A DNA stretch of 36,344 nt from a virus. The notes beneath the pieces were generated by a model. The model searched no databases. It saw nothing but the letters and a program-made list of their open reading frames with translations, and had not been told where the DNA came from. The position numbers were made by a program, and so were the translations under genes. Location: the IMG/VR virus record IMGVR_UViG_3300031772_000130, positions 1 through 36,344 of that record. The stretch is one strand, 5' to 3'. Of this stretch, positions 30,361 to 36,279 are shown piece by piece (positions within the stretch are counted from its first letter, which is position 1; each line of letters opens with the position of its first letter).

Positions 30361-30837
30361 TCATATCAACTGAATTCTTTTCCCTCGCCCTAACTTCATG
30401 ATCGGTAAGCCTAGTTCACGTGCTTTTTTTAGAATAGTTACCCTTGAACACTTAAAATATTCTTCTGCTGCTTTTGAGCCCTTTTCAGTATAAATCTCTA
30501 TGAATTTATCATTATCGATTCTCTTTAAAAGGCCTCTGCCCTTTCGCAATGGTAATAGATCAAGCTCTTTCACTTTTCTATGCACTGATGATACTGAAAT
30601 GGTATAATGCTTTGCTGCTTCAACAATACTATGGTTTTGTAAAAAAGTTATAAAAGTAGCATCATCAATATTTTTTATCTTTGTTTTATAGTTTGATGTT
30701 AATCCAAGTTGCTTTGCTATGTTATGAGCGGAAACATAACAAATATTAAGCTTTTTTGCTATTTCTTTATATGACATAGTTTTTTTTAGTCTCAGAAATT
30801 CCTCAATTGATATCTTTTTACTTTCATTTTCTGGCAT
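30361..30837 (-). CDS. Regulator with three tandem helix-turn-helix units
   Basis: The only minus-strand gene, 158 residues. Three units of about 48 residues share the pattern F-I-x...A-A-K/E-x-Y-x-I/C-S...V-x-x-K-x-K/R-E-L-x-L: unit 1 has S-Y-K-E-I-A-K-K-L-N-I, unit 2 S-I-V-E-A-A-K-H-Y-T-I, unit 3 G-S-K-A-A-E-E-Y-F-K-C. Units 2 and 3 end in Gly/Arg/Lys arms (L-R-K-G-R-G; L-G-R-G-K-R) like AT-hooks. Such a protein should contact a long asymmetric site. AGGAGG precedes ATG. It is divergent from the replication gene and probably controls one or both promoters. Confidence 0.8.
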   Translation of the reverse strand: MPENESKKISIEEFLRLKKTMSYKEIAKKLNICYVSAHNIAKQLGLTSNYKTKIKNIDDATFITFLQNHSIVEAAKHYTISVSSVHRKVKELDLLPLRKGRGLLKRIDNDKFIEIYTEKGSKAAEEYFKCSRVTILKKARELGLPIMKLGRGKRIQLI

Positions 30838-30975: not shown

Positions 30976-32823
30976 ATGTCGGAGATCGAGAATAAGGGTA
31001 ATGTTGATGCTACTGCATTATTTCAAAAAAAACTAATAGAAAATGTTGCTTTCCAATATGTTAGTATGTCAAAAAATTTATTTTTACGTTCTGATTTGAA
31101 TTTACTTGAAAAGCATATATTAAGTTTAATATGCCATTTTTCTTACAATACAGGGAATATAAATCAATGCTATGAAGGTTCTAATCAATATCTAGCTTTA
31201 TATTTTCAAGTTTCAGAATCCCGAATAAGTCAAGTAATAAGTCAATTAGAAAAGTTGAGACTCGTTGATGTGGAATGTTCACGCATACAAAATGATATGG
31301 GTATGTGGGTTTCTAAACGAAAAACGAAACCAACAGCACTTGCAAAGCTGTTAAACAGTAATGATTTTATATTTTTAAGTGTCCCAATCGTTGATATTAC
31401 TATGAGTTTAAAAAATTTAACTGACAGTTCGGAAAATTTAACTGACAGTTTCAAAAATTGCGAGCTATTAAGTATAGTAATAAGTAAACTAATAAGTAAT
31501 AATAGTATTACTAAGAATAGTAATACTATTAGATCTGAAAAATCAGATCAAAATCCAACACAAAATAAAGAAGTGTCTAAAATAAGTAATATTGACAGGG
31601 TTATAGATACATATATAAAAAAATGGAATGATTATATAGACTCTAATATAAAAAATAATAAACCTTCTAAAATAAAGATCGACAATACTTCTAAAATAAT
31701 CAAATCAATTACAACATCTATTCTAATGTTAGAAAATGGTACATTTTTAAAAAACAGACCTGTGGATCTTGATGTAGAAAAAAATAAAAAGTTTACAACC
31801 GATGAAATCATAAAAAACATAGAAAAATATTTATCCCTATTTGATTCTAATCTAGTAATATCAGGGTGGAAGGGTGTTTTTAATCGTGAAAAATTGCTTA
31901 AATCATTAGATGCTTTTTTATATAATCCAATATCAAAAAATTCATTTTTTTTCTTTATTTTCGATAAAGATATTGTTGATCAATCAAATTTAAATATTAT
32001 CTATAAAGATTTGGACTATACTGTTATAGAGCGTTATTTTGCTCTATTTAAGTCAGATTATATTGAAAATTATAAAGTGAAAATATTAAAGACTCTAAAT
32101 GAACTAAATATTGAATTTGACAAGATCATACAGGGAAATCAGGATATAATTAAGATAGATAAAAAGTTATTATTTGATAAGTATTTAGAGTTTATTTTTT
32201 TAAAATATGATTGGATAGATTCTAAAAACTATGGGAATATCGCGGTAAATTCAGAAGCATATCGACTTTTTAAGGTGTGGTTAAATGAAAATGAACATAT
32301 CAATATTGATATGAGCGAGACAGAGCGTTTAGCAGTGAGAAAAGATCGACTTATTTTTGAAGGTGTTAAAACAGAATTTGATTTTCTGGGGAATCTTCCC
32401 ATTGATCCTATGCCTGATTTGGGTGACATTGTTGAAGAATATTTGTCATCTAGGTTGTCTTTTTTAAAATTGGGGCGGGCATATATAGGTATATCTAGTA
32501 AATTAGCTGTAATTGAGTGTTTTTTGACGCATTCAGACATGGATGTAAAGAAAAAGATATGTTTAGATTTATATCGAGCTGGTCTTTTTGGTTGTGAAAA
32601 ATATTATGGGAAAGTAGTGTCAGAATTTGATTTGTCCTCATTATTTTTAGATGATCCTTATGCGATTATTGATGCTGCCGGAAAGATAAAAGAAATTGGA
32701 ATTAAGTGTTATAATGATGATGAGGTTCATTTTTTGAAAGGCGTTTTTTTAAACAGTGCCTTTTATTATAAGTTAAATGATTTGTTTAATTCTTTGTTGG
32801 ATAGGTTGCACTATGCTAAATAA
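30976..32823 (+). CDS. Replication initiator-like protein
   Basis: A 615-residue protein. Residues about 40-100 form a winged-helix-like DNA-binding part (L-L-E-K-H-I-L-S-L-I, then Q-Y-L-A-L-Y-F-Q-V-S-E-S-R-I-S-Q-V-I-S-Q-L-E-K-L-R-L-V). Residues about 145-205 are a low-complexity linker. The long C-terminal region is helical and not recognised. The DNA coding for the linker holds direct repeats and perfect palindromes, as the lambda O gene holds the lambda origin. With the helicase and primase downstream, an initiator role is likely. I do not see ATPase motifs. Confidence 0.65.
   Translation: MSEIENKGNVDATALFQKKLIENVAFQYVSMSKNLFLRSDLNLLEKHILSLICHFSYNTGNINQCYEGSNQYLALYFQVSESRISQVISQLEKLRLVDVECSRIQNDMGMWVSKRKTKPTALAKLLNSNDFIFLSVPIVDITMSLKNLTDSSENLTDSFKNCELLSIVISKLISNNSITKNSNTIRSEKSDQNPTQNKEVSKISNIDRVIDTYIKKWNDYIDSNIKNNKPSKIKIDNTSKIIKSITTSILMLENGTFLKNRPVDLDVEKNKKFTTDEIIKNIEKYLSLFDSNLVISGWKGVFNREKLLKSLDAFLYNPISKNSFFFFIFDKDIVDQSNLNIIYKDLDYTVIERYFALFKSDYIENYKVKILKTLNELNIEFDKIIQGNQDIIKIDKKLLFDKYLEFIFLKYDWIDSKNYGNIAVNSEAYRLFKVWLNENEHINIDMSETERLAVRKDRLIFEGVKTEFDFLGNLPIDPMPDLGDIVEEYLSSRLSFLKLGRAYIGISSKLAVIECFLTHSDMDVKKKICLDLYRAGLFGCEKYYGKVVSEFDLSSLFLDDPYAIIDAAGKIKEIGIKCYNDDEVHFLKGVFLNSAFYYKLNDLFNSLLDRLHYAK
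31412..31549 (+). other. Candidate replication origin inside the initiator gene
   Basis: Two copies of AAAATTTAACTGACAGTT (31412-31429 and 31433-31450), each containing the palindrome AACTG-A-CAGTT. Then an AT-rich tract with AATAAGTAA words, a perfect 13-base inverted repeat (31500-31512 / 31519-31531, spacer AAGAAT), and a perfect 7-base inverted repeat GATCTGA-AAAA-TCAGATC (31532-31549). Iteron-like repeats plus hairpins in the linker-coding part of the initiator gene resemble lambdoid origins. Confidence 0.6.
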
Positions 32824-32830
32824 TTTATCG

Positions 32831-32907
32831 TAAATAAAGTGTAAAATATTAAAATATATTTGACAGGATATATAAAAAATGATATTATTGCGTATAAGTT
32901 AAATAAA
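32831..32907 (+). promoter_or_regulatory. Promoter cassette, copy 2 of 3
   Basis: TTGACA 32860-32865, 17-base spacer, TATTAT 32883-32888, embedded in the same block as at 110-186 and 35964-36040. It begins just after the initiator stop codon and drives the 87-residue gene at 32929. Copies 2 and 3 also share the word TTATCGTAAATAAAG at their left ends. Confidence 0.85.
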
Positions 32908-32928
32908 TAATTTTTTAGGAGTTTAGAA

Positions 32929-33192: not shown

Positions 33193-33202
33193 ATGGTTAT
33201 AG

Positions 33203-33275
33203 TCAATATTGTTAATATTGATTCATAATAGATTAACGTTGTTGATCTTTTTTTTAAAAGACTATAAAAATAGTC
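33203..33275 (+). terminator. Array of three hairpins including a T8 terminator
   Basis: Hairpin 1: TCAATATT-GTT-AATATTGA (33203-33221), perfect. Hairpin 2: GATTAAC-GTT-GTTGATC (33231-33247, one wobble) followed by eight T, an intrinsic terminator for the 32929 gene. Hairpin 3: GACTAT-AAAA-ATAGTC (33260-33275), perfect, followed by a T-rich stretch at about 33286-33293. With the terminator at 33335 this 190-base gap is unusually structured. Confidence 0.65.
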
Positions 33276-33334
33276 AGATAAGTAAATTTTTTTAATGTTT
33301 TTGGAAAGACAACACTATATTTTTTGAACAACAA

Positions 33335-33359
33335 AAAGAAGGGTCAAAAGCCCTTCTTT
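33335..33359 (+). terminator. Intrinsic terminator before the helicase gene
   Basis: AAAGAAGGG (33335-33343), loop TCAAAAG, CCCTTCTTT (33351-33359), then ATTTAAA. A nine-pair stem. It lies only about 20 bases before the helicase start, so it must be regulated or leaky for the helicase to be made from upstream; no clear promoter is visible between it and ATG 33382. Confidence 0.8.
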
Positions 33360-33381
33360 ATTTAAATTGGGGTGTTTTGGA

Positions 33382-34947
33382 ATGAAAAGAGCTTGGAAAA
33401 ATAAAGATGGTAAAATAAATTTAAAGTTTTCATCAGAACATAAAAAAGAATTTATGGTTATTCTGGATTTTGTGAAGTCTTTGCCTAACAGAACATTTGA
33501 CACAAAATTAAAAATATGGACGGTTCCGAACAATCAAACGGTTATAAAAAAAATAAAAGAAGCTGGTTTTGTTTGTGAAGGTTTAGAAGAATCTGTAAGT
33601 AACAAATGGCAAGCTTTTAAAATAGATCTCTCTAAATTAGATGGGTTTAGGGATTATCAAAAAGAGGGTGTTAGATTCTTATGTGCAAATAATGGTCATG
33701 CGCTATTAGCTGACGATATGGGTATCGGTAAAACTATCCAAGCACTGGGTTATCTTATTCAAAACCCGGATATTAAAAAGGTTTTGATTATTTGTCCTGC
33801 GAGCGTAAAAGAAAATTGGAGAAAAGAATTAAAAAAATGGACAGGTCGATCATCAGTGGTTTTAAGTGGTAGATCAGATCACATAAGAGGCGATATAGTA
33901 GTAATTAATTATGATATATTATCAGATTATACAGATTCTATTTTAGATTATGGTTTTCAGCAAATTATAGCAGATGAGAGCCATAACATTAAAGAGCCTA
34001 GACGTATAAAAACAAAAGCTTTTTGCAAAATAGCTAAAAAAGTTGGTCATGTTATCGCTCTTACAGGTACACCAATCGAAAATAGACCGATTGAGATTTT
34101 TACAACGCTTGAAATATTAGATCCCAAAATGTGGTCAAATCGTTTTAATTTTGGCGTGCGATATTGCAACGGAAAAAATAACGGTTTTGGCTGGGTGTTT
34201 AATGGTGCTTCAAATATGGATGAATTGCACATATATATATCATCGTATATGCTTAGACGAAAAAAAAGCGAAGTTTTAAAAGATCTTCCTGAGAAAACTC
34301 GATCCATTATCTCTATTAAGTTAAGCGATACTGATTTTAAAAAATATAAAGAATTAGAATATACTTTTATGTCTGATAGTGTTATGTGTATGGACTTTTT
34401 AGGTGTTTATAATGAATTAACGCTAGCTCTTTTTGATATAAAAAAAGAGATTATATTTAGCTGGTTAGATGATTTTTTAGAGTCCGGCAAAAAAATTGTT
34501 ATTTTTGCGGTGCATAAAGTAGTTATTAGTGCGTTCATGGAAAAATACGCAGAAAAAATAGTAAAAATAGACGGATCGGTCGATAGTAAAAATCGTCAAT
34601 CTATTGTTGATTATTTTCAAAATAATGAAAAGGCACAGATTTTCATTGGTAATATAAAAGCGGCTGGGGAGGGGTTGACTTTGACGGCTGCTGATACTGT
34701 GCTGTTTATCGAGTTGCCATTAACGCCAGGTAGGCTTTTTCAGGCAGAAGACAGATGCCACAGAATAGGGCAAAAGAATGCAGTTACTGTCTATTACCCA
34801 TTGGTTGAAAATTCTATTGAAGAGTTTTTATTTAATACTCTTACAACAAAAGAATCGATTGTTAATAATGTAATAGATGGCCTTAATGATGACAGCTCAT
34901 CAGTGTTGAAAAATTTATTTAATCAATATAAAAATATTAAGGGGTAA
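33382..34947 (+). CDS. SNF2-family DNA helicase/translocase
   Basis: A 521-residue protein; ATG 33382 is used, since TTG 33367 overlaps the likely G-rich site. Residues 1-65 resemble a HARP-like domain (V-K-S-L-P-N-R-T-F-D-T-K-L-K-I-W-T-V-P). Motor motifs: D-D-M-G-I-G-K-T (Walker A, 111-118), P-A-S-V-K-E-N-W (139-146), D-E-S-H (198-201), T-G-T-P-I-E-N-R (228-235), A-A-G-E-G-L-T-L-T (427-435), Q-A-E-D-R-C-H-R-I-G-Q (454-464). It moves on duplex DNA, probably in fork remodelling or replication. The primase-like gene follows. Confidence 0.95.
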   Translation: MKRAWKNKDGKINLKFSSEHKKEFMVILDFVKSLPNRTFDTKLKIWTVPNNQTVIKKIKEAGFVCEGLEESVSNKWQAFKIDLSKLDGFRDYQKEGVRFLCANNGHALLADDMGIGKTIQALGYLIQNPDIKKVLIICPASVKENWRKELKKWTGRSSVVLSGRSDHIRGDIVVINYDILSDYTDSILDYGFQQIIADESHNIKEPRRIKTKAFCKIAKKVGHVIALTGTPIENRPIEIFTTLEILDPKMWSNRFNFGVRYCNGKNNGFGWVFNGASNMDELHIYISSYMLRRKKSEVLKDLPEKTRSIISIKLSDTDFKKYKELEYTFMSDSVMCMDFLGVYNELTLALFDIKKEIIFSWLDDFLESGKKIVIFAVHKVVISAFMEKYAEKIVKIDGSVDSKNRQSIVDYFQNNEKAQIFIGNIKAAGEGLTLTAADTVLFIELPLTPGRLFQAEDRCHRIGQKNAVTVYYPLVENSIEEFLFNTLTTKESIVNNVIDGLNDDSSSVLKNLFNQYKNIKG

Positions 34948-35063: not shown

Positions 35064-35957
35064 ATGCGGATAGATATAAAAAAATTATTGGACGATCATA
35101 ATATTGTAAATAAAGATACTGGAAAGAATACGCAAGCGGGTTGGCTTAATATCAATTGCCCGTTCCCTCATGAAAAGGGCTTAGATGAAGGCTTTCATGG
35201 TGGTTTTAACCTCGAATCCGATAAATTATATTACAGTTGTTGGATTTGCAAATGGCATCCTCTTGATATTGTTTTGGAAAAATTAGGCATTGACGCTTCA
35301 TTTTTAAATGCTTATAAATTCCCTAGTATAAAAAAAGATAAAGCCATAATAAAAAGACCATCCCATATTGAAGTTCCGGGTATAAAATCACCTTTATCGC
35401 TACATAGAAAATATTTTTTAAAACGTAAATTTGAAATTGATTTTTTGAGTTTAAAATATGATTTGCGTTTTACGGATCACTCAGACGGTTTCTATAAATT
35501 CAGGGTTGTTTTCCCAATATATCTTAATCAAAGAATAGTTTCTTATCAATGTAGGGACGTGACTGATCAGCAAGAGGTTCGTTATCTTGCTTGTAAAAAG
35601 GATGATGAAATAATCGAGCACAAACACACATTATATAATATAGATAATTGTACACTGAATAAAGTCATTGTCGTTGAGGGTATTTTTGATAATTTAAGAT
35701 TGGGTGATAATTGTGCAAGTAGCTTTGGAACTGGGTTTACAGATGAACAAATCGCTTTAATAAAAAGTAAAAAATTCAAAAAAGTGTTTATATTGTTCGA
35801 TAACGAGGATCGAGCACAAAAAGATGCCGAGAAAATGGCTATAAAACTCTCTGATAACGATATAGAAGCCTATATAGTGAATATCCCTTTTGAAGATCCA
35901 GCGGTGATGTGTGAAAAAGATGTCATAGCTCTAAAAAGTAAACTTGGTGTGTATTGA
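35064..35957 (+). CDS. Primase-like protein (zinc finger plus TOPRIM)
   Basis: A 297-residue protein. An N-terminal zinc finger uses Cys32 with His36 or His45, and Cys59 and Cys62 (N-C-P-F-P-H...Y-S-C-W-I-C-K-W-H), like DnaG or gp4 primases. The TOPRIM domain has V-I-V-V-E-G-I-F-D-N (Glu205), G-T-G-F-T-D-E-Q, and I-L-F-D-N-E-D-R-A (Asp246, Glu248/Asp249). It would make RNA primers, working with the initiator and helicase. No helicase domain is fused. The third promoter cassette begins after its stop. Confidence 0.85.
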   Translation: MRIDIKKLLDDHNIVNKDTGKNTQAGWLNINCPFPHEKGLDEGFHGGFNLESDKLYYSCWICKWHPLDIVLEKLGIDASFLNAYKFPSIKKDKAIIKRPSHIEVPGIKSPLSLHRKYFLKRKFEIDFLSLKYDLRFTDHSDGFYKFRVVFPIYLNQRIVSYQCRDVTDQQEVRYLACKKDDEIIEHKHTLYNIDNCTLNKVIVVEGIFDNLRLGDNCASSFGTGFTDEQIALIKSKKFKKVFILFDNEDRAQKDAEKMAIKLSDNDIEAYIVNIPFEDPAVMCEKDVIALKSKLGVY

Positions 35958-35963
35958 TTATCG

Positions 35964-36040
35964 TAAATAAAGTGTAAAATATTAAAATATATTTGACACA
36001 GTGTATAAAAAATGATATTGTAGCGTATAAGTTAGATAAA
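35964..36040 (+). promoter_or_regulatory. Promoter cassette, copy 3 of 3
   Basis: TTGACA 35993-35998, 17-base spacer, TATTGT 36016-36021, within the same conserved block as copies 1 and 2. It begins seven bases after the primase stop and drives the Cys hexapeptide-repeat gene at 36055. Confidence 0.85.
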
Positions 36041-36054
36041 TGAGGGGTAAGAAA

Positions 36055-36279
36055 ATGAAAATAACAAAAAATGATCTGCGTGATGGTATATATTATGATG
36101 GTGCTTTAATTTGCAATGAAAATTTAAAAATTGATTGTGGTATAATTATAACAGGTTATTTGGATTGTCAAGGTTATTTGGATTGTCGAGGCGATTTGGA
36201 TTGTCGAGGCAATTTGGTTTGTGGAGGCGATTTGGTTTGTCAAGGCAATTTGTATTGTCGAGGCAATTTGATAATATGA
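36055..36279 (+). CDS. Cys hexapeptide-repeat protein, 74 aa
   Basis: ATG 36055 follows GAGGGG by 7 bases. Residues 1-30 are an N-terminal cap (I-T-K-N-D-L-R-D-G-I-Y-Y-D-G). Then come six hexapeptides of the form x-L-x-C-x-G (Y-L-D-C-Q-G, Y-L-D-C-R-G, D-L-D-C-R-G, N-L-V-C-G-G, D-L-V-C-Q-G, N-L-Y-C-R-G) and a short end. A turn every six residues suggests a small left-handed or bactofilin-like beta-helix with a ladder of cysteines along one face. Function unknown; metal binding or assembly is possible. Confidence 0.75.
   Translation: MKITKNDLRDGIYYDGALICNENLKIDCGIIITGYLDCQGYLDCRGDLDCRGNLVCGGDLVCQGNLYCRGNLII
36154..36261 (+). repeat. Six tandem 18-base coding repeats
   Basis: Units start at 36154, 36172, 36190, 36208, 36226 and 36244, consensus GG-C/T-N-ATTTGGATTGTCRA. 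Each encodes one hexapeptide. The period is a multiple of three, so unit gain or loss would keep the frame and change protein length. Confidence 0.85.

Follow-up and report, generated by a model that had tools for sequence, protein, structure and literature searches.

A probable replication origin with palindromic iterons and tandem hairpins inside a phage initiator gene

Results

The replication module and its initiator protein

The window analysed here spans an entire IMG/VR virus record (36,344 bp) and represents a contractile-tailed phage, with genes for terminase, portal, major head protein, tail sheath, baseplate and endolysin. Its replication module opens with the initiator gene P0001 and continues with an 87-aa ORF that has no match, an SNF2-type helicase gene and a TOPRIM primase gene (Table 1). 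These three occupy the place directly downstream of the initiator gene, where no P- or DnaC-like helicase loader is present, and we therefore do not assign the phage to the lambda O/P system. Relatives of the helicase occur in phages bearing the initiator family described below, and relatives of the primase were found in two genomes (G004 and G020), both of which also bear it. Detrended GC skew has its minimum at 32132, 0.6 kb from the repeats described below, in a possibly incomplete record with nearly all genes co-directional; as weak evidence, this agrees with an origin at that location.

The intergenic DNA between the 87-aa ORF and the helicase gene (33193-33366) is AT-rich, folds strongly and has three hairpins, of which the last (33335-33359) resembles a terminator. 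We considered this stretch as a rival origin site and rejected it, since it ends in that hairpin and yielded no tandem repeat array.

The N-terminal domain of P0001 is that of a replication initiator. Residues 22-111 match phrog_270 (replication initiation protein) with an E-value of 4.9e-4, and hhalign aligned residues 18-102 to a profile of seven winged helices with 94% probability (E 1.1e-7). This profile was built from phage initiators and homologues, those of phages c5 and JK1 included, and each of its members matches several replication-initiation PHROGs. The match of P0001 to HTH_36 (PF13730) scores 13.4 bits, below the curated cut-off of 25, while one homologue reaches an E-value of 4.7e-6. 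The RepA_N domain (PF06970) gave no match in P0001 or in any of the eight aligned family members.

A full-length structure model of P0001 had too low a quality for use (pLDDT 45) and was set aside; the model of the C-terminal domain was of moderate confidence (pLDDT 75.6). Foldseek against PDB and BFVD returned no credible structural match for this domain, and VIA-align 2 run on the Foldseek candidates gave a best Z of 4.0, which is not credible either. The missing structural match does not establish novelty of the modelled fold.

Repeats, AT-rich stretch and hairpins in the linker

Between the winged helix and the C-terminal domain, the linker-coding DNA holds a compact series of elements, in the very part of the gene where the preliminary description had placed them. 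The series begins with two iterons, at gene positions 437-475, which are identical at 18 of 18 positions and spaced by 21 bp; each ends in an 11-base odd palindrome, as had been described, and the full iterons number only two. Both keep the reading frame, and each encodes (K/E)NLTDS. The 81-bp stretch that follows is 80% A+T (19.8% GC), and in stability the 80 bp from 31451 rank below 99.3% of all stretches of that length in the window, among the 0.7% least stable. Overlapping its end is a perfect inverted repeat that had been reported as 13 bases long: its existence and place hold, and its arms measure 14 bp. The 7-base perfect inverted repeat, also reported earlier, directly abuts it. TRF finds three adjoining short-period arrays, of period 21 (31405-31459, 2.6 copies), 12 (31469-31525) and 15 (31497-31528).

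Table 1. Features of the replication module and of the linker-coding DNA of P0001.
Feature	Position	Strand	Remarks
Initiator gene P0001, 615 aa	30976..32823	+	ORF; phrog_270; hhalign; opens replication module
Domains of P0001			N-terminal winged helix, ~aa 22-111; origin-coding linker (putative), ~aa 140-205; C-terminal domain from ~aa 205
Iteron 1, AAAATTTAACTGACAGTT	31412..31429	+	palindrome AACTGACAGTT at 31419-31429
Iteron 2, AAAATTTAACTGACAGTT	31433..31450	+	palindrome AACTGACAGTT at 31440-31450; TRF array
AT-rich stretch, presumed unwinding region	31451..31531	+	12-bp tandem repeats at 31469-31525; overlaps hairpin 1
Hairpin 1, TAATAGTATTACTA-AGAA-TAGTAATACTATTA	31500..31531	.	perfect 14-bp inverted repeat, 4-nt loop
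Hairpin 2, GATCTGA-AAAA-TCAGATC	31532..31549	.	perfect 7-bp inverted repeat, AAAA loop; abuts hairpin 1
SNF2-type helicase gene	33367..34947	+	Pfam SNF2-rel_dom 2.3e-39; phrog_62 1.4e-108
TOPRIM primase gene	35064..35957	+	phrog_47 3.4e-32; Toprim_2

The segment 31497-31533 can also be parsed into a series of TAN triplets (TAA TAA TAG TAT TAC TAA GAA TAG TAA TAC TAT TAG). These may recall DnaA-trio elements; ANN codons in the gene frame alone could explain them.

Departure from chance

Across the entire window, hairpin 1 exceeds every other perfect inverted repeat (loop up to 12) in length. As a null model, synonymous codons were permuted within the gene, which keeps both the protein and the codon usage. 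An arm of at least 14 bp appeared in 1 of 3000 such shuffles and a direct repeat with 18/18 identity in 14 of 3000, while the tandem hairpin pair was equalled in 1 of 1000. The preliminary description had called perfect palindromes in coding DNA improbable by chance, and the shuffles rarely reproduce those seen here. The tandem-pair shuffle tests were devised after the window and one relative (L124) had been seen, and their independent check consists of three other relatives only (L135, L138 and L139, below). Folded as single-stranded DNA, 31400-31560 reaches -25.2 kcal/mol, where dinucleotide shuffles reach -8.2 +/- 2.2 (z = -7.6).

These figures bear on a rival reading, an artefact of low-complexity coding in which the duplication of a 7-residue segment, together with AT-rich codons, would yield functionless repeats and palindromes. 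The repeats do keep the reading frame and duplicate a peptide, and the codons for S, N, I, T and K are AT-rich; the synonymous shuffles, however, preserve exactly these constraints. Because they seldom reproduce the repeats and palindromes, neither protein nor codon usage explains these elements, and the same layout recurs with unrelated sequences in homologues. We consider a coding artefact extremely improbable.

Finding relatives of P0001

Homology searches with P0001 in viral-contig and genome-contig collections gave no close relative, and neither did tblastn against phages or a comparison with 42 terminase-related viral records. Helicase or primase alone, used as query against viral contigs, recovered no relatives. 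A search of viral contigs for the iteron pair had as its sole product a baseplate gene with protein repeats, which was discarded.

The route to relatives led from the terminase to neighbouring replication genes and from these to the C-domain. The terminase search yielded about 80 viral contigs, and helicase and primase searches among them yielded records with a comparable module. In one of these (L112), the protein P0002, which adjoins the primase of its record, has the C-terminal motif SLDxxxYNPxxxxSxF in common with P0001; P0002 in turn matches P0003 of L110 (E 6.6e-5). Profile searches then added L121, L123 with L124, and L135 with L138 and L139. The C-domain is common to P0001 and L112, L110, L124, L135, L138 and L139. 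Eight aligned members have this domain in common and differ in their N-domains; among the PHROGs they match, seven are of replication-initiation or O-like type and three represent DnaD-like loaders. In pairwise terms, homology of the C-domain to P0001 itself is weak (BLASTP on two sequences alone, E 5e-4; phmmer, E 0.23 and, in another run, 0.14), and the link of P0001 to the family depends on the bridging sequences L112 and L110.

Read by eye, the ORF directly after the L138 initiator starts like the SNF2 helicases of the related records, and an upstream ORF starts like the TOPRIM primases. Regions of three relatives (L110:1603-15899, L135:5102-8335 and L123:2966-7217) hold ORFs resembling SbcCD/T4 gp46-47 nucleases and a second winged-helix protein beside the initiator, again by eye, and L110:1606-3015 matches the DnaB_C helicase domain. 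No genes of these kinds were seen among the window proteins scanned.

The layout recurs with unrelated sequences

Most of these distant C-domain relatives carry iterons of unrelated sequence in the same linker, followed by AT-rich repeats. L135 has three 24-bp iterons and then TAATACACG repeats, ending in two abutting hairpins with arms of 13 and 7 bp (TAGATGCAGACAC-TAAC-GTGTCTGCATCTA, then directly GTTTTCT-CTT-AGAAAAC). In L138 a pair of 21-bp iterons precedes hairpins whose arms measure 10 and 8 bp; L139 has a short TCCATAATGGA repeat, AT-rich repeats and hairpins with arms of 7 bp each. These three records were fetched after the layout had been written down, and the hairpin pair is present in all of them, equalled in 0/1000 (L135), 2/1000 (L138) and 4/1000 (L139) shuffles; in their loci, such a pair occurs nowhere but in the initiator linker. 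The fourth relative with a pair, L124, shows it weakly. Its linker holds palindromic CTTTAAAG repeats, 12-bp AT repeats and the hairpins TACTTCT-AAG-AGAAGTA and CGATTC-TAAT-GAATCG, with a marginal count of 41/1000. The background rate of such pairs is 24 in 4528 blocks of 250 bp, and 18 in 912 AT-rich blocks. The pair was not found in L110, L123, L112 or L121. L110 and L123 have three 15-bp AAAACCGTT..CGGT repeats and one hairpin (CCTTTTC-AAAA-GAAAAGG); L112 and L121 have no significant linker repeats. Iterons, AT-rich repeats, tandem hairpins and the C-domain thus occur together clearly in the window, L135, L138 and L139, and marginally in L124.

The hairpins of the window and its relatives combine perfect pairing with loops of 2-4 nt, which suits a DNA structure. 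Lying in a transcribed linker, they would fold as RNA too, and could then act in the mRNA, apart from the iterons, by attenuation, stability or translational pausing between domains. The arms are perfectly Watson-Crick in the window, L135, L138, L139 and L124 (a property that the search itself required), G-U pairs make up only 2 of the 45 in the folded window linker, there is neither an Rfam match nor a U-tract, and the hairpins immediately adjoin the iterons and the AT-rich stretch. Such an RNA-level element appears improbable to us.

An autoregulatory operator would place the origin elsewhere and have the palindromic repeats serve as binding sites of the initiator, or of another regulator, in transcriptional control of the operon. 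The winged helix of P0001 is of a generic kind, and the upstream gene on the opposite strand (30361-30837) also has HTH matches, both of which would suit an operator. The site, however, lies 440-575 bp inside the gene, with a promoter-like match that is weak at most, and no further copy of the 11-mer (up to 2 mismatches) was found in the upstream intergenic stretch. The adjoining AT-rich repeats and hairpins and the layout of the relatives suit an origin better, and we hold an operator to be very improbable.

On these grounds, 31405-31549 is quite probably the replication origin of this phage, situated within the linker-coding part of its own initiator gene.

Discussion

Comparison with lambda and other known systems

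Dimers of lambda O attach to iterons of inverted-repeat type inside gene O and, on supercoiled DNA, open the AT-rich region next to them (PMC5043065), and two iterons plus the AT-rich region form the minimal unwinding unit (PMC7466680). The same code, applied to lambda O as a positive control, recovered the known iterons at the same place in the gene (gene positions 349-420, against 437-475 in P0001; 3/300 shuffles) and detected no tandem hairpins. The window linker contains both the palindromic iterons and the AT-rich region of a lambda-type origin, and P0001 has the corresponding N-terminal winged helix (phrog_270, hhalign). As in lambda, the putative origin lies in the middle of the gene for an initiator with an N-terminal DNA-binding domain, and palindromic iterons of 18-19 bp, about 20-24 bp apart, precede an AT-rich region (PMC7466680, PMC5043065). 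Lambda differs in having four iterons rather than two, of unrelated sequence, in lacking the abutting hairpin pair by the same test, in the smaller C-terminal part of its initiator, and in having gene P where the window has an SNF2 helicase and a primase nearby.

Phage genes for O-like initiators extend the comparison. The winged helices of Lactobacillus phage c5 and Staphylococcus phage vB_Sau_JK1 are related to that of P0001, and the O-like genes of both, like those of Bacteroides phage B124-14 and Burkholderia phage BcepMigl, have tandem iterons in the same linker; in phage O-like initiator genes, linker iterons are often followed by 12-bp AT-rich repeats. Unlike P0001, these four proteins have 243-316 aa and lack its C-domain, and several of their genes precede DnaC-like loaders. 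The corresponding part of the gene also holds direct repeats that reach significance in c5, vB_Sau_JK1, BcepMigl, B124-14, Acetoanaerobium phage ANDSL2_ph1 and Pseudomonas phage Skulduggery, as well as in unannotated genes of Lysinibacillus and Vibrio phages. In phiLdb, elemoF and Leptospira phage LE1 orf5 the linker repeats fall below significance; the winged helix of LE1 orf5 is nonetheless related. Where hairpin pairs were found in annotated initiators and controls, they consist of the iterons, and none lies downstream of the AT-rich stretch. The earlier claim that the locus copies the lambda O/origin logic is well supported as architecture, because P0001 has the winged helix and because the linker layout recurs in homologues, with iterons also in annotated initiators and lambda O.

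A second parallel is offered by plasmid initiators of the RepA_N/pPR9 type. The pSK41 initiator uses its N-domain to bind boxes that lie in its own gene and its C-domain to bind DnaG, and the protein linker encoded by the origin can be dispensed with; in pPR9, an HTH_36-type N-domain and its origin replaced those of pSK41 as one unit (PMC5703833). The window fits this scheme of a winged helix, an origin in the central linker-coding DNA and a separate C-domain. In the plasmids the C-domain recruits the replisome (PMC5703833), and that of P0001 is not detectably related to it. Further differences are that the window is a phage and not a plasmid, that no RepA_N match exists and that HTH_36 matches only below the cut-off.

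The locus is best read as an already known kind of origin, the lambda type inside a phage initiator gene. The window origin would be a variant of that kind because of the tandem hairpins and the unclassified C-domain.

A possible mechanism

For initiator binding, unwinding and firing, and for the role of the hairpins, we infer the following scheme. Dimers of the N-terminal winged helix of P0001 would bind the two palindromic iterons and bend the DNA, and bound P0001 would melt the adjoining AT-rich repeats, by analogy with lambda O at ori-lambda. Upon melting, the two abutting hairpins could fold on the exposed strand, or as a cruciform. By a similar analogy, they might mark the place at or near which the C-terminal domain of P0001 loads helicase and primase, a role that we propose only tentatively. 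A stronger version, in which the hairpin pair would be an undescribed but required part of phage origins, a structured single-strand or cruciform loading site read by a new all-helical C-domain that recruits helicase and primase without a DnaC- or P-type loader, seems to us rather doubtful.

The analysis gives a probable position for the origin of a phage whose replication proteins have no close relatives in the collections searched, where it stands isolated. It also indicates that layout alone can reveal an origin inside an initiator gene, even where relatives differ in sequence. From the hairpin pair, which recurs, and the unclassified C-domain follows a concrete, testable hypothesis of how some phages load helicase and primase without an obvious loader gene.

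Other repeats in the record

Three near-identical modules of about 78 bp (TAAATAAAGTGTAAAATATTAAAATATATTTGACA-17-TATTAT...GTATAAGTTA) stand ahead of genes at 110-190, 32832-32910 and 35963-36043. They contain a strong sigma-70-type promoter match (11/12 at 32860-32888) and are probably a repeated early promoter. Near the left end, a small gene has a 63-bp tandem repeat (741-938) that codes for 21-residue leucine-rich repeats of the LYCSNNQLTSLDIS type. An 18-bp repeat (ATTTGGATTGTCGAGGCA) that codes for the hexapeptide repeat LDCRGD/N occurs six times at the right end of the record (36158-36270).
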